Shown: positions 27,766 to 45,931 of the stretch, piece by piece
How positions within the stretch are numbered: position 1 is the stretch's first letter
Layout of the letters: each line of letters opens with the position of its first letter
Origin: Flavobacteriales bacterium
Lineage (GTDB): Bacteria; Bacteroidota; Bacteroidia; Flavobacteriales_F; PHOS-HE28
DNA: 64,000 nucleotides
Reading direction: 5' to 3'
Assembly (NCBI GenBank): GCA_023382455.1
Contig: JAHDVX010000001.1
Coordinates: 124,001-188,000, forward strand
Program-made: the position numbers and the translations under genes
The notes under the pieces: model-generated
What the model was told of the DNA's origin: nothing
The model's database searches: none
What the model saw: the letters and a program-made list of their open reading frames with translations, nothing else

Positions 27766-29160
27766 ATGAGCAAGAAGGTCTACATCGAAAGCTACGGCTG
27801 CCAGATGAACGTGAACGACAGCGAGGTCGTGGCGGGCATTTTGGCGAAGGACGGCTACGTGGCGGTGCAAAGCGCGGAAGAAGCCGACCTGGTGCTGTTG
27901 AACACGTGCAGCGTGCGGGAGAAGGCGGAGTACACGGTGATGCAGCGCATCAACGAGATGAACCGCCTGAAGGCCGGCAACAAGGAGCTGAAGGTGGGTG
28001 TGCTGGGCTGCATGGCCGAGCGCATGAAGGAGAACCTGCTGGTGGAAAAAAAGGTGGTGGACCTGGTGGTGGGCCCCGATGCCTACCGCAGCCTGCCCAA
28101 GCTGCTGGACGAGGTGGGCAGCGGCCAGCGCGCGGTGAACGTGCTGCTGAGCCGGGAGGAGACCTACGGTGAGATCGTGCCGGTGCGGCTGAACAGCAAC
28201 GGGGTGACGGCCTTCGTCACCATCATGCGGGGCTGCGACAACATGTGCGCCTTCTGCGTGGTGCCCTTCACCCGGGGCCGCGAGCGCAGCCGCGACCCGC
28301 AGACCATCCTGGGGGAATGCCGGGACTTGGCGGACAAAGGCTACAAGGAAGTGACGCTGCTGGGCCAGAACGTGGACAGCTACCGCTGGAACATCGACGC
28401 CCGCGGCACGGTGAAGGACCCTTCGCTGCCGGTGACCGACTTTGCCGACCTGCTGGAGCTGGTGGCCATGAACTGCCCGGGGCTGCGGATCCGCTACAGC
28501 ACCAGCCACCCCAAGGACATGACCGACAAGGTGCTGGCCGTGATGGCCCGGCACGACAACATCTGCAAGTACATCCACCTGCCCGTGCAGAGCGGCAGCA
28601 GTGCCGTGCTGCAGCGCATGAACCGGGGCTACGACCGCGCCTGGTACCTGGAGCGGGTGGCCAGCATCCGCCGGCACATGCCCGAGTGCGCCCTGAGCAC
28701 GGACATCATCAGCGGCTTCTGCGGCGAAACGGAGGAGGAACACCAGGAAACCCTCAGCCTGCTGGCGGAAGTGGGCTACGACATGGCCTTCATGTTCAAG
28801 TACAGCGAACGGCCCAAGACCTTGGCCGCGCGCCGCCATGAGGACGATGTCCCCGAGGAGGTAAAGAGCCGGCGGCTCACCGAGATCATCGAGGCACAGC
28901 GGAACAGCTCCGCCAAGCGCCTTGCGGGCTATGTGGGGCAGGAACACAAGGTGCTGGTGGAGGGTGTGAGCAAGCGCAGCACGGAATTCATGCAGGGCCG
29001 CAATACCCAGAACGCCGTGGTGATCGTGCCCAAGGCCTTGGCCGACGGCACGGCGCTGAAACCTGGTGATTTCATCCGGGTGCGCATCACCAGCTCCACC
29101 CCCGGCTCCCTGCAGGGGGAACCCTTGGCCCTGCTTCACCGAATCCAGCACCCGGCATGA
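27766..29160 (+). CDS. miaB: tRNA-2-methylthio-N6-dimethylallyladenosine synthase
   Basis: ESYGCQMNVNDSE, radical SAM CDNMCAFCVVP, TRAM domain. Confidence 0.97.
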   Translation: MSKKVYIESYGCQMNVNDSEVVAGILAKDGYVAVQSAEEADLVLLNTCSVREKAEYTVMQRINEMNRLKAGNKELKVGVLGCMAERMKENLLVEKKVVDLVVGPDAYRSLPKLLDEVGSGQRAVNVLLSREETYGEIVPVRLNSNGVTAFVTIMRGCDNMCAFCVVPFTRGRERSRDPQTILGECRDLADKGYKEVTLLGQNVDSYRWNIDARGTVKDPSLPVTDFADLLELVAMNCPGLRIRYSTSHPKDMTDKVLAVMARHDNICKYIHLPVQSGSSAVLQRMNRGYDRAWYLERVASIRRHMPECALSTDIISGFCGETEEEHQETLSLLAEVGYDMAFMFKYSERPKTLAARRHEDDVPEEVKSRRLTEIIEAQRNSSAKRLAGYVGQEHKVLVEGVSKRSTEFMQGRNTQNAVVIVPKALADGTALKPGDFIRVRITSSTPGSLQGEPLALLHRIQHPA

Positions 29161-30362
29161 ACGTGCAACCCATCAAGCAACGCTTCGGCATCATCGGCGC
29201 CTCGCCCCTGCTGGACCGCGCCATCGAGATCGCCGCACAGGTGGCCCCCACGGACCTGAGCGTACTGGTGAGCGGCGAAAGCGGCAGCGGCAAGGAGGTG
29301 ATGCCCCAGATCGTGCATGCCTTCAGCGCGCGCAAGCACGGCCCCTACATCGCGGTGAACTGCGGCGCCATCCCGGAGGGCACCATCGACAGTGAGCTCT
29401 TCGGCCACGAAAAAGGCTCCTTCACCGGCGCGCACGAGGCCCGCAAAGGCTACTTCGAGGTGGCCAACGGCGGCACCATCTTCCTGGACGAGGTGGGCGA
29501 GCTGCCCCTGAGCACCCAAGTACGCCTGCTGCGCGTGCTGGAGAGCGGCGAGTTCATCCGCGTGGGCAGCAGCAAGGCGCAGAAGACCAACGTGCGCGTG
29601 ACCGCCGCCACCAACGTGAACATGCTGCAGGCCGTGCAGCGCGGCAAGTTCCGCGAGGACCTGTACTACCGCCTCAACACGGTACCGATCCACGTGCCGG
29701 CGTTACGCGAGCGCAAGGAGGACATCCACCTGCTCTTCCGCTGGTTCGCCCAGGAGGCCGCCGCACGCTACAAGGCCCCGCCGCTCACCCTCACCGAGGA
29801 AGCCCGGCAGCTGCTCTCCAACTACCGCTGGCCCGGCAACGTGCGCCAGCTGCGCAACCTCACCGAACAGCTGAGCGTGATCGAAAAGGACCGCACCGTG
29901 ACCGTGGAAACCCTGCGCAGCTACCTGCCCGCGGAGAACATGGGCCTGGTGCCTGCCGGTCATAACGGCGAAACCGCCGGGGGGCCTGAGGGCATCAACG
30001 AGCGGGAATTGATCTTCAAGTTCCTCTTCGACATGAAGAAGGACCTGAATGCACTGAAGGACCAGGTGAGCGCCCTCACCGGGGGGCACCCCATCGCGGT
30101 GCAGCCCGTGCAGCCCTACCCGGAAAACATCCTCTTCGCGGGCGCCGGCAACCCGGGCATGAGCATCCGCATGCCGCAGGAGGAGGAGGAGGAAGTGGAC
30201 CACACCGAGGTGGAGGAATCCCTCAGCCTGGAGGAAAAGGAAAAGGAACTGATCCGCAAGGCCCTGGACAAGCACCGGGGCAAGCGCAAGAAGGCTGCAC
30301 AGGAACTGGGCATCAGCGAACGCACCCTTTACCGCAAGATCAAGGAGTGGAACATCGACTAA
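29157..30362 (+). CDS. Sigma-54 interaction domain transcriptional activator, Fis-type HTH
   Basis: GESGSGKE, FGHEKGSFTGAHE, FLDEVGELPL, C-terminal AAQELGISERTLYRKIKEW. Confidence 0.93.
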   Translation: MNVQPIKQRFGIIGASPLLDRAIEIAAQVAPTDLSVLVSGESGSGKEVMPQIVHAFSARKHGPYIAVNCGAIPEGTIDSELFGHEKGSFTGAHEARKGYFEVANGGTIFLDEVGELPLSTQVRLLRVLESGEFIRVGSSKAQKTNVRVTAATNVNMLQAVQRGKFREDLYYRLNTVPIHVPALRERKEDIHLLFRWFAQEAAARYKAPPLTLTEEARQLLSNYRWPGNVRQLRNLTEQLSVIEKDRTVTVETLRSYLPAENMGLVPAGHNGETAGGPEGINERELIFKFLFDMKKDLNALKDQVSALTGGHPIAVQPVQPYPENILFAGAGNPGMSIRMPQEEEEEVDHTEVEESLSLEEKEKELIRKALDKHRGKRKKAAQELGISERTLYRKIKEWNID

Positions 30363-36475: not shown

Positions 36476-39400
36476 TCAGTATTGAAGCCCGCTCCGTTTT
36501 CGGCCTTTCCAGGCAACGATGCCCGCAGCAGCCAACGCCAAGGCAATGGCCGCAATCCAGAGCGGGTTCCAGTTGCGCCGCAGGTGCACCGGCTCCAGAT
36601 CACCGATCAACACCAGGCCTGCCCAGTAATAAGGATGGACCAGGTCATCCTTGGCCGTGGCTAGGAACTCCAACTTGGCCTGGCGCAACGCCGCATGCTT
36701 GGCCATGCCATCCCGGAGCAGCTCATGAAAGCGGGTGACGATGCCCGCGCTTGTCTTCTCGTCGATATTCCAAAGGGCGACCACCATGCTTGGGCAACCG
36801 GCGTAGGCGAAGCTGGCACCTAACGAGCGGATGCCCTCCCCGGCCTCTTCCTTGCCTGCCCCGCTTTCGCAGGCGGTGAGCACGGCCAGCTGGGCACGCA
36901 GGTCCAGTTCGTAGATCTCATAGGCATGGAGGTAACCGTCGTCATCCGGTTCCAGACCTGCACCACCCTTGCTGAGCACCAGGCGCGAGTACATCGGGTA
37001 GGAAGGGTCCATTTCGGCATGGGTGCCCAAGTAGAGGATACCGTACTTGCCGGCCCTCTCGCGGAAGTGCCCTTCACTGGCCTGCTGGCCCGTGAGCACC
37101 TGGGCTGATGGCGAGCGGCCCAGGGCCTGGGCGGTCATCACCGCGAAGGGTTGCCGCACGTAGCGGAAGAACCGATCGTCCAACATGGTGCTGTCGGTCA
37201 CGGCCTTGCGGTAATCCGCCTTCACCCGGTCGCTGAAGCCGGGTGCCAGGGCCAGTACGCCGTTGGCCCGCTCCCGTGCCAGACCGGCGAACTGGATGGC
37301 CACGGTGGCACTGAGCAGGTAGGCCACGGTGTAGCGCTGGATGAGCAGATGGTCCGTGTAGTGCGCCACGCCGGGCTCGGAAAGCAGCAGCTCGAAGTTC
37401 AGCGTGCCCAGTTCGCCGTCTGGAACGATGAGCAGTTCCGGTGCGGTAAGCCGGTCCGCCACGGGGGCGAACACCAACTGGTGCAGTGCGTGGGCATGCT
37501 CCGCGAATGCCGTGGTCTCGCGCCGGTCCACGGCTTGCTTCAACCCTTTCACCGCCGCCCGCAGGCCCGCCGTATCGAGCCGGGTGATGCTGGCCGCCTG
37601 TGGCCCGATCACCAAGGCATAGAGGTGCTCCGCGGTCCTGGCATAGATAAGCAGTTGGCGTTCGGGCGTCAGCAGCGCCTTGCGCACTTCGGCGAGAGAT
37701 GGCTTCCGTTCCCCGTAACGCAGATCGAAGTAGCGCGGGTAATGCTGCTCGAAGGTGCGCAGCAGGTCCTTGAAGCGCCCGGCCTGCACATCGCCTTGGG
37801 CCAGAGCCTCCCGGTCCTCCGGAAGTTGTGCCAAGGCGGTGGTCAGTTCATGCTCCAAGGCGATGAGGCTGTCCGGCACCCCGGCGAAGCGCATGCTGGA
37901 AAAGCTGTTCAGGCGGTCCTTCAGCAGGATGGAACGATCGGTCTCGGTGAGCGTGAAGAAGCGTTGCAGGTCCTGCTCCGAAGCGGACTTTGCGTAGCTG
38001 GCGTAGGCTGTTTCCAAGGCCAGGTCGAACAGGCGCTGTTGGGCCGCCACGAGCAGGAGCTTGGAACTTTCATCCTTCACGGCGGCGTGGCTGCGGGCCA
38101 GGTAGCGGATCGCCAGGTCGAGCTCCTTGTTCCATTCCGCGGCATCGGTGCCCGTCCCCAGGGCTTGTTCGGCCCGGACCTTCCAATAGATGGCATCGGG
38201 GAGGATGTGCGGGTCCGTGAACATCAACGGAAGGCCGGAGGACTGCACGGCCTGGATCCTATCCCGCATGGCGTGCAAGGCGATGTCGGCGAAGGCCCGG
38301 GCCTCGGCGTACTGCTTCAATGGGAAGGCCTGCTCCGCCAGCAGCACGTCCACGCGCGCCACGCGGTAACTCTCCTTTCCGCCGATGTTCACCTCGATCC
38401 GGCGGGCCTCCCGGAGGTCTGCCATGGACCCGGCATGATCGCCGGAAGCGCCCCGTAGCGCTGCACGCCGCAGCAGGGCCTGCACCAAGGTCTGGCTGGT
38501 CTCCTCCGGGCCGCTGGCCTTGCTGGCCGCTATGCTTATCGCGAAGAGGGAATCGGCCTGCGCGGCCTGGCCTTGTTGCATGCGCACTTCACCGAGCTTC
38601 GCCACGGCCCGGGCATACTCCTCACTGTGCCCGCCGTACTTGGCCTCGCACGCGGCCACGTAGGAGCGCACCAGCTCCGCCGCCTGGGCCGGATCGCCGG
38701 AGGCCAAGGCCACATCGCCCTGCCGCTCGCGCACGGCAAGCAGTTGGGGATCGTCCGGCGAGAGGATCCGGCTCCGGTCGGCCCAAGCCAGCTCCAGCAG
38801 TTGGTGTGCCTGGCCGAGGTCACCCAGACCTTGGTACACCGTGGCCAGGTTGAGGTAGGTGCGGGAGCGGTTCACGATGGCCTCGTCACGCGTGGAGGGA
38901 TCCGTAGCGGCGGCGATGAGCTTGTTGCTCTCCCGCATGGAGCGGTAGTAGTAACTGCGGCTCCGGGGCAGGTCGCCGGCATTCTGCCACAGCACGCCCA
39001 GGTTGCCCAGCGTGGAGATGCGGCGGTTGATCGCGGCCTCGCTGCTGTCGCCCTCCAACGCTTTCAGGGCCGCTCCGTACTTGGCCTCCGCATCGCGGAT
39101 GCGGCCCAAATGCCAAAACGCCACACCGAGGGTGTTCCAGGATTCGGACCATTGCACGGCCGGAATGGAATCTGCCTTGGCGTATTCATCCAGCGCCATT
39201 TGCGTAAAGCGGGCCGAACCGGTGTGATCGCCCACGCTGCTGTAGTCGAAGGCCAGGTATTGGCAGGCCTTTCCCCGCTTGGCCCGGGGAATGTCCGGAT
39301 CGCTTTGCGCAACCACCACCGCCAGGGAATCCGTGCGGATATAATCGGTGGTACGGCCGGCCTCGTAATAGATCCAGCTCAGGTCGAACAGGGCTTCCAG

Positions 39401-39700
39401 CAAGTACGGTGCCCTGCCCCGCTCGCGCACACGCTGCACCAAGGACTCGGCGGCCGCCGCGCCGTCACCCCCGGTGAGCTTCCGCATGGCACGGCCGTAT
39501 TTGTACACGTACCGGTGCAGCGAATCCTGCCACGGGGTGCCCGGTGCCTGCTCCACCTGCAGCTCAATGGCCTTGGCCAGGTCCGCGTAGCGCTCCTTCT
39601 TGTAGAGGTCCCTGATCAGCGAGTCACGCCATGCGAGGTCCTGCGCCTGAACTGCGGCTGCCAAGACGACCACGAGGGGCAGCAGCAGGCGGCGCATCAC
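36476..39700 (-). CDS. Exported TPR-CHAT protease with C-terminal TM anchor
   Basis: Signal peptide MMRRLLLPLVVVLAAAVQAQ, TPRs, CHAT His (ILYLGTHAEMD) and Cys (AVLTACESGAG), TM WIAAIALALAAAGIVAWKG. Confidence 0.9.
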   Translation of the reverse strand: MMRRLLLPLVVVLAAAVQAQDLAWRDSLIRDLYKKERYADLAKAIELQVEQAPGTPWQDSLHRYVYKYGRAMRKLTGGDGAAAAESLVQRVRERGRAPYLLEALFDLSWIYYEAGRTTDYIRTDSLAVVVAQSDPDIPRAKRGKACQYLAFDYSSVGDHTGSARFTQMALDEYAKADSIPAVQWSESWNTLGVAFWHLGRIRDAEAKYGAALKALEGDSSEAAINRRISTLGNLGVLWQNAGDLPRSRSYYYRSMRESNKLIAAATDPSTRDEAIVNRSRTYLNLATVYQGLGDLGQAHQLLELAWADRSRILSPDDPQLLAVRERQGDVALASGDPAQAAELVRSYVAACEAKYGGHSEEYARAVAKLGEVRMQQGQAAQADSLFAISIAASKASGPEETSQTLVQALLRRAALRGASGDHAGSMADLREARRIEVNIGGKESYRVARVDVLLAEQAFPLKQYAEARAFADIALHAMRDRIQAVQSSGLPLMFTDPHILPDAIYWKVRAEQALGTGTDAAEWNKELDLAIRYLARSHAAVKDESSKLLLVAAQQRLFDLALETAYASYAKSASEQDLQRFFTLTETDRSILLKDRLNSFSSMRFAGVPDSLIALEHELTTALAQLPEDREALAQGDVQAGRFKDLLRTFEQHYPRYFDLRYGERKPSLAEVRKALLTPERQLLIYARTAEHLYALVIGPQAASITRLDTAGLRAAVKGLKQAVDRRETTAFAEHAHALHQLVFAPVADRLTAPELLIVPDGELGTLNFELLLSEPGVAHYTDHLLIQRYTVAYLLSATVAIQFAGLARERANGVLALAPGFSDRVKADYRKAVTDSTMLDDRFFRYVRQPFAVMTAQALGRSPSAQVLTGQQASEGHFRERAGKYGILYLGTHAEMDPSYPMYSRLVLSKGGAGLEPDDDGYLHAYEIYELDLRAQLAVLTACESGAGKEEAGEGIRSLGASFAYAGCPSMVVALWNIDEKTSAGIVTRFHELLRDGMAKHAALRQAKLEFLATAKDDLVHPYYWAGLVLIGDLEPVHLRRNWNPLWIAAIALALAAAGIVAWKGRKRSGLQY

Positions 39701-40428
39701 GGGTTGTATTGGCGCTCGATCTCCCGGGCGCGTTCACCATAGACCGGATCATCGGTGATGCCCATGTGCCGCATGGCCTCGTGGTTTCCGCTTCGCAGGT
39801 AGGCGAGGTAGAGGAACCAGCGGGCCTTGCCCTGGAAGGCTGATACGGCATTCGCCGCCACTTCCCGGAAGTGTGGTACGGCTTCCCCGGCCCTCCCTTG
39901 GGCCAACAGGGCACTGGCGATGTAGAACTGCAAGGTGTCATTGCCCGGGTCCGTTCGCAGCAAGGGTTCCCACTTGGCCACGGCCTCGGCATAGTCCTCC
40001 AGTTTATAGGCCACCATGGCATCCTGGAACTCGGGGTCCTTCACCACGCTCATGGGCACGGGCAGGCCGGGGTCAGGATGGTAGTACTGTGCAAACACCC
40101 GCTCCTGGGCCGATGGCCGGACCGCCCACCAGATCCCCGCTCCGAGGAGCAGGGCCAGCATGGCCGCATACTTCAGCAGCGGTGCCCAACGGCTTCCTCC
40201 CTCGGTTGAGCCTGTTCCGTGCGCCGCCCGAAGGTCCTTCAGGGTCCGCTCCACACCGGCCATTTCCACGGCCAGGATGTTCTCGCGTTCCAGCTCGAGT
40301 TCTTCACGCAGTTCAGGGTCCGAGGCGAGCTTCTGTTCGAAGGTGATCCGTTGCCCCTCCTCCATAGTGCCCAACACGTAGGCCTCCAACTCCTCAAAAG
40401 CCTCCTGCCGCAATGCTCCCTGTCTCAT
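39697..40428 (-). CDS. Anti-sigma-factor-like membrane protein with C-terminal TPR region
   Basis: LEAYVLGTMEEGQRITFEQKLASDPELREEL N-term, single TM YAAMLALLLGAGIWWAV, TPR-like C-term; overlaps flanking genes. Confidence 0.7.
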   Translation of the reverse strand: MRQGALRQEAFEELEAYVLGTMEEGQRITFEQKLASDPELREELELERENILAVEMAGVERTLKDLRAAHGTGSTEGGSRWAPLLKYAAMLALLLGAGIWWAVRPSAQERVFAQYYHPDPGLPVPMSVVKDPEFQDAMVAYKLEDYAEAVAKWEPLLRTDPGNDTLQFYIASALLAQGRAGEAVPHFREVAANAVSAFQGKARWFLYLAYLRSGNHEAMRHMGITDDPVYGERAREIERQYNP

Positions 40429-41036
40429 GCCTCCCGGTGATTATCGCCCTTGATCATCTTGCGGCTCGCGCGAAGCTTCATCATGCAGCGGTACTTGATG
40501 GTGCGGATGCTTTCCTCCTCCACGGACAGGGTTCGCGCGATGGTGGCCAGGTCCTTCCGTTCGAAGTAGAACAGGTCCAGTACTTGGCGGCACTTGGCAT
40601 CCAGGCGCGCGTAGACGGACCGCAGGCGGACCAGTTGGTCCTCCGTCCCGGGACCGGCCGTATCGGCTACCAGCCCGCTCATCTCTTCGTCACGCAACAC
40701 GCGCATGTGCCTGTGGTTTGCGGACCGGAGCACGTCCAGCCATTTGTGTTTGGCCACTTGGAATAGGAACCCGCCGGGATCGGCGTTCGTACCGGCCTCG
40801 TAGCGCCCCTCCTTCACCCGAAGCCAGAGCACAAGAAAAGCTTCCTGGAAGATGTCTTGGGCGTCGTCCAGCGTACCACTGTTGTCCAAGATGTACTTCC
40901 GTACGGCCGGAAAATGGACGTTGTACAATTGTTGGATGGATTGCCGCTCGTTGCACAGCAACCCCTGTAGCCAATCGTGACCGGCCGACACTTCGATGGA
41001 TGCGATTTTTCCCACGATGAATGGGGAATTCGCCAC
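40425..41036 (-). CDS. Sigma-70 family (ECF-type) RNA polymerase sigma factor; start uncertain
   Basis: AQDIFQEAFLVLWLRV, region 4 FYFERKDLATIARTLSVEEESIRTIKYRCMMKL; no ATG in frame close upstream, GTG start assumed. Confidence 0.85.
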   Translation of the reverse strand: MANSPFIVGKIASIEVSAGHDWLQGLLCNERQSIQQLYNVHFPAVRKYILDNSGTLDDAQDIFQEAFLVLWLRVKEGRYEAGTNADPGGFLFQVAKHKWLDVLRSANHRHMRVLRDEEMSGLVADTAGPGTEDQLVRLRSVYARLDAKCRQVLDLFYFERKDLATIARTLSVEEESIRTIKYRCMMKLRASRKMIKGDNHREA

Positions 41037-41259
41037 GATAATACTCAATGATCTCCATTCTGTCCAATGGCGGGGCGGCTTCTTCCGGTATTCCCCCTCC
41101 ACCCTGCTATCGGATTGGGTGTGAAATGTGAACAGGGCGAACGCCCGGGTTCCGCTTGGGAGGAAGGTGTCCGGGTAGCCGAATGCCACCATGGCCGTGG
41201 TTGGCAGGTGGCTCGTTCACATCGGCGGGCATCCCCCGATAAGAGGAAAAGCACAGCTC

Positions 41260-41700
41260 ATGTCGAAACCCAACAGCTTCTATCCAAACAAGGAAAAATG
41301 GTCCATGCAACTGATCGCCCTGGTGACGAGCGGGGTGGAAAACGGGCCACTCCCCGGCAGCACGGTGGTTGGCTACGTTCTGCCGATGGAGGACAGTGGC
41401 TCGATTGCCCGGGCCTTGGAAGACCTGCACGAGGGGCGGCTGCCCAGCACCGGCCGCAAGGTGCGCGTGGTGCTGCGGCCGGAAAAGGAGAATGCATCGG
41501 CCGGCCGGTTGAGCCCCCGGGAAAGCGAAGTGCTGCACGCCCTGGTGGAAGGGTTGAGCTACAAGATGATCGCGGACCGGCTGGATATCGGCTTCGAGAC
41601 CGTGCGCACCCATGTGAAGGCCATCTATTCGAAGATGGAGGTGAGCAACAACACCGCCGCCGTGGCCAAGGCGATCCATTGGGGCTTGGTGGCGGCCTGA
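41260..41700 (+). CDS. LuxR/NarL-type HTH protein lacking a complete receiver domain
   Basis: LSPRESEVLHALVEGLSYKMIADRLDIGFETVRTHVKAIYSKMEV; N-term lacks phospho-acceptor Asp region. Confidence 0.8.
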   Translation: MSKPNSFYPNKEKWSMQLIALVTSGVENGPLPGSTVVGYVLPMEDSGSIARALEDLHEGRLPSTGRKVRVVLRPEKENASAGRLSPRESEVLHALVEGLSYKMIADRLDIGFETVRTHVKAIYSKMEVSNNTAAVAKAIHWGLVAA

Positions 41701-43885: not shown

Positions 43886-45931
43886 ATGAACCCGCAGCCT
43901 TCCAGCCCCGCACGCGCCAAGCGGAACACCATTGCACCGTGGGGCGCGGTCTTGTTCCTGCTGTGGTCCACCGGCGCCTTTCCGCAAACGGCCTACGAAC
44001 GGTTCCGCCAAGCGTGGGATGCGGAAGGCACCGGACAACTGCAGCAACTGGTCCAGCCCGGTGTGAAGGACGTGCCACCATGCGTACATCTGCTAACGGA
44101 GGCGGCGCTGGCCTGCCGTCTCTCGGATGACCGGAATGCCCTGCTGTTGCTGGACAGCCTGGAGCAGGCCGCTTGCCGCACCGAATGGCCGATCCGGGCT
44201 GCCGGCCTGAAATTGAGGTCCTCCCTGCTGGTGAAGCTGGGCGATCCGGAATCCGGGCTGGTCGCGGCGGACAAAGGGCTGGGTCTGCTGAAAGGCAAGC
44301 CCTTCCCGGATGAACGGGTGGACCTGATGGTGATCCGCTCGGAGGCCCTGATGGTGCTGGACCGGTTTGACGATGCCATGGCGCAGCTGGTACCGGCCCA
44401 GCGTACGGTGGATTCCACCGGCTACGGCAAGGGCGGTGCGCTGGTGCACTTCAGCATCGGCAGCATCCATTTCCACCAGGGGCGCTACTCCGACGCCTGG
44501 CAGGATTTCCGCGCCGCCTACACCCTGGCCGGTGCCAGCGGGGCGCACTACCTGGCGATGAACGCACTGAGCAACCTGGCCGGCACGGCCATCATGCAGA
44601 AGGACCACACGCTGGCATTGGACCTCTTCGACAGCGTGCTTCAACGGCCCTCCGGGATCAGCCCCGAGGTGCTGGCCCAGGCACGCACCCAGCGGGGTTA
44701 CATCAAGGAACGGGCCGGCGACCATGCCGGGGCGGTGCGCGACCTGGAAGCGGCCGTGGCGCAGTGGGCCGCCATGGGCAATGCACACCTGCAGGTGCAA
44801 GCCATCCAATACCTGGCCACCTCGTGCTGGAACCTGGGCCGCAAGGAGCAGGCCATGGGCTTGCTGGAGCAGGCCTCGGAACTGGCCAAGCGTGCGGGGC
44901 AGGCGCAACGGCGGGCGGAGATCCTGCGGAAGCTCTCGCGCTGGTCCGCCGAGCAGGGCGACCCTGTCAAGGCGCTGGAACAACTGCGTGCGTACAGCGC
45001 CCTGTCCGATTCCCTGGCCAAGGCCAAGTACAACGAGGCCTTGGCGGCGAAGGAGGTGTTGTTCGGCACCGAGCGGAAGGAGCACCACATCGCCCGGCAA
45101 CAGCAGGCCTTGGAACTGGCCGCCGCCGTGGACCGCCGCAAGGACGTGCAACGCGCGGCGCTGGCCTTGGCCGTGCTCGCCGCCAGTATCGTGGCCTTCC
45201 TGCTCTGGCGCTCCCTGCGCCACCGGCGGAAACTGGCCGAGCAGGAACGGGAGCTGCACCTGCGCCAGGTGGACGACCTGATCCAACGCAATGAGATCAG
45301 CATCATGAACGCCATGCTGGAAGGGCAGGAAAAGGAACGCAGCCGCATGGCCAAGGACCTCCACGACCGCCTGGGGGCCATGCTCAGCACCGTCAAGCTC
45401 CAACTGGCCGCCCTGGAGGATAAAGTGGCGCTGGCCAAGGGCGACCTGCGTGCCCACTACGACAAGGTGGCCCACCTGCTGGACGAGGCCGTGGGCGAGG
45501 TGCGCCGCATCGCCCATGACATGAACTCACTGACCCTCTCCCGTTTCGGGCTGGCCAAGGCCCTGGAGCAGCTGTGCGACAGCGTTCGCGTCTCCGGGCG
45601 GCTGGCCGTGGACCTGCACCTCTTCGGGCTGGAGCGCCGCATGGATCGTTCGCTGGAGATCGTGCTCTACCGCATCACGCAGGAGCTGATCAGCAATGCC
45701 CTCAAGCATGCCCGCGCGAAGGAGATCGAGGTGAGCCTCACCCGCGAGGCCGGCCGCATCAGCCTGATGGTGAGCGATGACGGCAAGGGTTTCAATCCGG
45801 CCCAGGTCGCCGCCGGCATGGGCTTGGAGAACGTGCGCAGCCGTGTCGCATCCTTCGGCGGTACCATCCAAATCGACAGCACGCCCGGCCACGGCACCAC
45901 CGTGAGCGTGGAAGGCCCCGTGACGGAGTGA
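43886..45931 (+). CDS. TPR-containing sensor histidine kinase (HisKA_3, NarX/LiaS type)
   Basis: TPR-like N-term, TM LALAVLAASIVAFLLWRSL, RSRMAKDLHDRLGAMLSTVKLQL, HATPase. Confidence 0.9.
   Translation: MNPQPSSPARAKRNTIAPWGAVLFLLWSTGAFPQTAYERFRQAWDAEGTGQLQQLVQPGVKDVPPCVHLLTEAALACRLSDDRNALLLLDSLEQAACRTEWPIRAAGLKLRSSLLVKLGDPESGLVAADKGLGLLKGKPFPDERVDLMVIRSEALMVLDRFDDAMAQLVPAQRTVDSTGYGKGGALVHFSIGSIHFHQGRYSDAWQDFRAAYTLAGASGAHYLAMNALSNLAGTAIMQKDHTLALDLFDSVLQRPSGISPEVLAQARTQRGYIKERAGDHAGAVRDLEAAVAQWAAMGNAHLQVQAIQYLATSCWNLGRKEQAMGLLEQASELAKRAGQAQRRAEILRKLSRWSAEQGDPVKALEQLRAYSALSDSLAKAKYNEALAAKEVLFGTERKEHHIARQQQALELAAAVDRRKDVQRAALALAVLAASIVAFLLWRSLRHRRKLAEQERELHLRQVDDLIQRNEISIMNAMLEGQEKERSRMAKDLHDRLGAMLSTVKLQLAALEDKVALAKGDLRAHYDKVAHLLDEAVGEVRRIAHDMNSLTLSRFGLAKALEQLCDSVRVSGRLAVDLHLFGLERRMDRSLEIVLYRITQELISNALKHARAKEIEVSLTREAGRISLMVSDDGKGFNPAQVAAGMGLENVRSRVASFGGTIQIDSTPGHGTTVSVEGPVTE

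Follow-up and report, generated by a model that had tools for sequence, protein, structure and literature searches.

A membrane-bound anti-sigma factor can be freed by a periplasmic cut followed by an intramembrane cut, as in the RseA/DegS/RseP and RsiW cascades. CHAT-domain proteins have also been linked to the control of extracytoplasmic function (ECF) sigma factors. In Myxococcus xanthus, the ECF sigma factor DdvS is paired with DdvA (PDB 8rot, 8rw5), a CHAT-bearing protein titled a transmembrane anti-sigma factor, and inactivating DdvA activates DdvS (PMC4374960). In type III-E Craspase, the ECF factor CASP-sigma is inhibited by Csx30, and cleavage of Csx30 by the TPR-CHAT protease Csx29 relieves this inhibition (PMC10028731). 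For the ECF54 group, protease control has been proposed from CHAT and other proteases in the gene context, without an anti-sigma factor (PMC8999054). Here, we describe a related locus in a Flavobacteriales bacterium (GTDB PHOS-HE28; assembly GCA_023382455.1), within a 64,000-nucleotide stretch of contig JAHDVX010000001.1 (positions 124,001 to 188,000; hereafter the window, whose own numbering is used throughout). Three overlapping genes on the minus strand at 36476-41036 encode, in order, an ECF sigma factor, a middle protein and a CHAT protein.

We propose that this trio forms a split-chain, membrane-anchored CHAT protease module that controls the ECF sigma factor via the middle protein, and give this explanation as a whole a probability of about 0.6. 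Through its cytoplasmic helical N-terminus, the middle protein would keep the sigma factor bound at the inner membrane; on the periplasmic side, it would display the conserved DPGLPVxMS loop and the TPR domain. The CHAT protein, exported and held by a C-terminal transmembrane segment, would have its CHAT domain anchored to that membrane on the periplasmic side as well, and would sense an envelope signal with its TPR solenoid. Once triggered, the CHAT His/Cys site would dock on, and most likely cut, the juxtamembrane loop (the site-1 cut). An RseP-type protease would then make the intramembrane cut and free the sigma factor, which would transcribe its own operon and genes for exported and surface proteins from a GTTCACAT-N13/14-CGAT promoter. 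An RseP-type M50 protease is present in the genome. Anti-sigma activity, proteolysis, the cleavage site and the trigger are what we infer here; for the last of these, the TPR arrays may point to a protein or peptide ligand.

Relation to known systems

Structural comparison leads to the systems named above. A fold search of the PDB with the CHAT protein model matched separase, Csx29 and DdvA. A CHAT-only profile returned DdvA as the best PDB match (E 1.8e-4), with the Craspase TPR-CHAT protein next, while a phmmer search of the PDB with the CHAT domain alone gave no match. The DdvA entry is deposited as a CHAT domain-containing protein of 991 residues, with the CHAT domain near the C-terminus and both His and Cys present. 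However, anti-sigma region, transmembrane segment and CHAT domain share a single chain in DdvA, whereas the trio consists of two membrane proteins: the CHAT protein has its own signal peptide and C-terminal transmembrane segment, and the anti-sigma-like chain its own TPR region and conserved loop. No fusion of middle and CHAT proteins occurred among the fetched loci, which sets the trio apart from the one-chain DdvA arrangement.

Craspase likewise unites a TPR-CHAT protease, a sigma inhibitor and an ECF sigma factor, but it is RNA-activated via Cas7-11 (PMC10028731), whereas the trio proteins are predicted to be exported or membrane-anchored. The PADLOC defence models returned no match for the trio, which is thus not a Craspase by this measure. 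A defence or CRISPR system was rejected on the same result; the conserved linkage of the CHAT gene is to the sigma and middle genes. The two-step release of a membrane anti-sigma factor proposed for the trio follows the RseA/DegS/RseP and RsiW pattern, except that a CHAT cysteine protease of caspase-like type, with its gene beside that of its substrate, would make the site-1 cut. ECF54, compared by description only, also has CHAT proteins near an ECF sigma factor, but is described without an anti-sigma factor. No description of the present trio was found in the literature searched, the coverage of which was partial. On our reading, the trio would add a two-chain version, located in the periplasm, to the known cases of ECF sigma control by CHAT.

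The CHAT protein

The CHAT protein (36476..39700, minus strand) comprises 1074 residues when read from GTG 39700, with ATG 39697 as an alternative start, and is the only CHAT protein found in its genome. Its CHAT domain spans residues 735-1034 (PF12770, E 5e-51), and TPR_12 and TPR_10 were also matched. His894 (GTHAEMD) and Cys944 (LTACESG) are invariant among 46 aligned CHAT relatives; in aligned CHATs linked to a middle gene, His is intact in 83/83 and Cys in 82/83. A CHAT domain with this His/Cys dyad places the protein in the CHAT peptidase family (clan CD), and the intact dyad rules out a degenerate CHAT. The protein is very likely an active protease. The AlphaFold2 (AF2) model is of high confidence (predicted local distance difference test, pLDDT, 90.3; predicted template modelling score, pTM, 0.85), and its sole segment with pLDDT below 50, residues 946-954, lies directly past Cys944. 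This would fit a loop that needs to become ordered upon activation.

The protein starts with a hydrophobic signal segment (residues 1-19) and ends with a transmembrane segment (1046-1064) and a K/R-rich tail. A C-terminal transmembrane segment is present in 70 of the 80 CHATs linked to a middle gene at a strict threshold, and 8 of the 10 remaining have a weaker, Trp-rich one by inspection (78/80 in total). Only 2/30 unlinked CHATs carry such a segment (linked versus unlinked, Fisher 1.5e-15), and one of these two has a middle-gene fragment at the locus edge. Because the tail is positive after the C-terminal transmembrane segment (net charge +3.2 in linked CHATs), the CHAT domain is placed in the periplasm, a predicted topology that we hold to be very probable. 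A cytoplasmic CHAT was rejected on the signal segment, C-terminal transmembrane segment and tail charge.

The middle protein and its juxtamembrane loop

The middle protein (39697..40428, minus strand; 243 residues) overlaps the sigma stop codon with its start (ATGA, 40428/40425) and the CHAT start with its stop (GTGATG). It is predicted to consist of cytoplasmic anti-sigma-like helices (8-71), one transmembrane segment (from residue 82 or 85 to 103), a juxtamembrane helix and loop, and a periplasmic TPR region (132-241), in which TPR_16 scores above the Pfam cut-off. The AF2 model (pLDDT 89.8) has a helical N-terminus before the transmembrane segment. Residues 14-117 match the NCBIfam 'antisigma' model NF052375 at a level under its cut-off (E 1.7e-7), and 29 of 43 relatives match it at E<=0.01. 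The window protein contains no Cys and so lacks the ZAS motif His-X3-Cys-X2-Cys, which rules out a ZAS-type anti-sigma identity; zf-HC2 gave a weak match in one of the 43 relatives. The middle protein is highly likely to act as an anti-sigma factor.

These results bear out most of what an earlier note had read from the letters of this DNA: three minus-strand genes with overlapping stop and start codons; a CHAT protein with signal peptide, TPR array, His/Cys pair and C-terminal transmembrane segment; a middle protein with an anti-sigma-like N-terminus, no Cys, one transmembrane segment and a TPR region. Its expectation of a periplasmic CHAT with catalytic residues kept in alignment agrees with the predicted topology and the near-invariant dyad.

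The best-conserved 9-mer across the 43 middle proteins is DPGLPVPMS at residues 119-127 (codons at 40048..40074, minus strand), with 3.35 bits versus a mean of 1.96. It begins 16 residues past the transmembrane segment and, in the AF2 model, forms an irregular, lower-confidence stretch between the juxtamembrane helix and the TPR domain. A site-1 cut would be expected in just such a conserved linear sequence so near the membrane, but a docking site would look no different; the loop is a candidate CHAT recognition or cleavage site. The strict motif occurs in 49 of 58 loci with a CHAT gene immediately downstream, and inspection found a near variant in 8 of the 9 others. Divergent and most convergent loci have other loop sequences, often of (Y/F)xPYPN type. 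On a CHAT tree of 103 tips, the loop type of the partner switches 2 times (label shuffles: mean 32, minimum 23) and the gene layout 17 times, and the convergent loci L237, L242 and L180 retain the motif alongside CHATs of matching clades. Cleavage of the middle protein by CHAT at or near the loop appears somewhat better than an even prospect. Two middle-protein relatives with a DPGLPE or DPGLPA loop (L130 and L135, in G335 and G195) have no CHAT gene nearby.

Linkage and inheritance of the trio

The order sigma-middle-CHAT, with genes overlapping or abutting, is kept in 19/20 CHAT loci fetched from the genus. A sigma orthologue (E<=1e-20) is present in 25 of 33 genus genomes, 24 of which have a CHAT match; in the 25th (G016), the contig stops inside the expected CHAT gene. 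Apart from G002, in which the contigs are split, the middle gene lies beside the sigma gene in every genus locus fetched or genome drawn. Of the eight sigma-less genomes, six have no CHAT match, and two (G011 and G019) have a CHAT and no close middle-gene match. Wherever sigma-less genomes were searched for the middle gene, they likewise gave no close match. Judging from gene presence, the three genes come and go together within the genus.

Full-length relatives of the middle protein, found with a profile, are spread over many families in the class. Outside the genus, a CHAT gene lies near the middle gene in 45 of 76 fetched loci, versus 2.6 expected from the CHAT density of the host genomes (200,000 simulations, maximum 11). 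Layouts there are co-directional, convergent or divergent, and the association of the sigma-middle pair with CHAT therefore survives rearrangement. The sigma gene is directly upstream in nearly all middle-gene loci and overlaps the middle gene in 45 of 51 co-directional ones. The trio is also carried by named isolates, among them Cryomorpha ignava, Parapedobacter soli, Parapedobacter koreensis, Gynurincola endophyticus, Flexithrix dorotheae and Chitinophaga sedimenti. The conserved linkage on which the reading of the earlier note depended thus holds in near and distant relatives. An artefact of chance or neighbouring genes is ruled out by the CHAT enrichment and by loci that are rearranged yet linked, and the trio is almost certainly a functional module.

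Related arrangements were also observed. A second, paralogous module occurs in the genus (L180, L198, L199 and L200, at G005:C80, G017:C34, G003:C25 and G032:C313), with a shorter CHAT (about 780-810 residues) and a loop of GLPVLMG type or a variant; three of the genomes have it in convergent layout and the fourth in co-directional layout. Three loci (L285, L287 and L289) hold tandem arrays of two or three CHAT genes with C-terminal transmembrane segments, in two cases near a convergent sigma-middle pair.

Alternative explanations

The conserved loop could also serve as a docking peptide for a CHAT protein that does not cut. Such a co-sensor would control the sigma factor by conformational change, with its TPR-CHAT part docked on the loop and the CHAT fold used as a binding module. 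Co-anchoring and co-inheritance of the CHAT and middle proteins would suit it, and the presence of CHAT within the anti-sigma chain of DdvA is compatible with a structural role. However, a purely structural role does not require the catalytic His and Cys, which are essentially invariant, and we consider a non-proteolytic CHAT unlikely. CHAT proteases can also be effectors, and in the window the CHAT gene is co-directional with sigma and abuts on its 3' side, as might be expected of an output. Such an effector would be made once the sigma factor is switched on, perhaps to remodel or kill the cell, and its substrate would be some other envelope component. Against this, the linkage persists where CHAT is on the strand opposite the sigma-middle pair, the loop type of the middle protein follows the CHAT clade, and two known sigma-linked CHATs act on or belong to a sigma inhibitor, leaving an output role distinctly improbable. 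That the middle protein is a membrane scaffold, with the sigma factor controlled otherwise, would account for its weak similarity to anti-sigma models. This is very improbable, given the sigma gene directly upstream with its frequent overlap, the NF052375 matches among relatives and the helical N-terminus preceding the transmembrane segment.

Several observations weigh against control by a CHAT protease acting on the middle protein. The NF052375 match of the window protein falls under the model's curated cut-off, and a fold search with this protein recovers its TPR part only. The conserved loop might serve for docking or for binding a ligand and not for cleavage, and co-inheritance of linked genes by itself yields concordant trees. 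In addition, no CHAT gene lies near the middle gene in 31 of the 76 distant loci, so CHAT is dispensable for some members; no shared replacement partner was apparent from the adjacent open reading frames of these loci. Finally, one genus genome (G026) has 10 sites of the candidate promoter motif P1 (described below), several 5' of exported genes, and no sigma match at E<=1e-20, and P1 may therefore belong to another factor. This assembly, which is 9% contaminated, gave no match to the sigma factor, the middle protein or CHAT.

Proteolytic control through the middle protein nevertheless remains our preferred explanation. The suggestion of the earlier note that CHAT controls the sigma factor through its membrane neighbour draws good support from the gene association, DdvA and Csx29/Csx30, but its choice of the TPR domain as the site gives way to the juxtamembrane loop, which is likelier. 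The system would also be less an alternative to site-1 protease cascades, as the note had it, than one of them: CHAT would itself be the site-1 protease, since a second cut, for which an RseP-type protease is present, would still be needed.

The sigma factor, its promoter region and candidate outputs

The sigma protein (40425..41015, minus strand; start uncertain) has regions 2 and 4 only, as expected of an ECF factor, with matches above cut-off to Sigma70_r2 (1e-7), Sigma70_r4 (1.7e-7) and TIGR02937 sigma70-ECF (2e-17). Its start may be GTG 41015 or 41036, within a long open reading frame that extends to 41192. The start at 41036 is doubtful because this position falls within a conserved cis element whose GTG is not conserved; GTG 41015 or a nearby codon is likelier. 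This element, P2 (TGGAC...GTATTATCG, 41036..41066, minus strand), has the form TGGAC-N15-CCGTAT(T/C)ATCG in most relatives, lies 5' of the sigma gene in the genus and, with that spacing, is almost confined to the trio operon.

A second motif, P1 (GTTCACAT-N13/14-CGAT), is common to the genus 5' of the sigma gene, together with a facing copy toward a GerE/LuxR gene. The window has two P1 sites versus 0.01 expected: one 5' of the sigma gene (41109..41133, minus strand; N13), a candidate autoregulatory ECF promoter, and one (41215..41240, plus strand) facing the divergent GerE/LuxR-family regulator (41191..41700, plus strand; Pfam GerE 2e-16). The regulator shares the P1 region and is associated with the trio without being part of its core. 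GerE/LuxR paralogues of other genus genomes likewise sit behind P1.

P1 is enriched in genus genomes relative to a reversed-motif control, and the genes directly 3' of it are mostly exported. Among them are 17 sequences of one lipoprotein family (a count that includes some sampled twice), beta-propellers of SBBP and DUF5122 type, proteins with type IX secretion system sorting tails, GerE/LuxR-family regulators and the sigma gene itself. In the same genome as the window, P1 lies directly 5' of a lipoprotein gene and a secreted-protein gene (G000:C2:10558-10583 and G000:C7:25565-25590). Throughout the genus, members of this lipoprotein family turn up behind P1. Non-operon P1 sites average 3.28 in sigma-bearing versus 2.25 in sigma-less genomes (p 0.026), and the sigma-less mean is 1.14 with G026 set aside (p 0.0036), a difference suggestive of a link between P1 and the sigma factor. 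We infer that P1 is the promoter of the trio sigma factor. The LuxR protein is less likely to recognise P1, as several P1-rich genomes have no LuxR match at E<=1e-15.

On one side, the operon is flanked by genes for GroEL and gamma-glutamyltranspeptidase; on the other lie the GerE/LuxR-family regulator and, close to it, the gene for a TPR histidine kinase. This TPR-containing HisKA_3 kinase (43886-45931, plus strand) and the GerE regulator are possibly a separate signalling pair. Among ten window proteins near the operon, the only PADLOC match was a sigma-54 activator (29157-30362, plus strand), the AAA part of which matches RtcR models; no CARF part was matched.

Implications

In its broadest form, the hypothesis places a caspase/separase-like site-1 protease in the periplasm, its gene lying beside that of its substrate across Bacteroidota. 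The protease would recognise or cut the DPGLPVxMS loop of a TPR anti-sigma protein and thereby switch on an exported surface-protein regulon, with the same principle at work in DdvA (one chain) and Craspase (CRISPR-triggered). We put the odds of this wider claim at even. It is directly testable, with one motif, one cysteine and cultured hosts (such as Cryomorpha ignava, Parapedobacter, Gynurincola and Chitinophaga sedimenti). If true, a caspase-fold protease would serve as a dedicated signalling enzyme in the bacterial periplasm, and the many uncharacterised CHAT proteins of Bacteroidota would gain a substrate hypothesis. The trio, DdvA and Craspase would then be united under one theme, CHAT control of ECF sigma factors.

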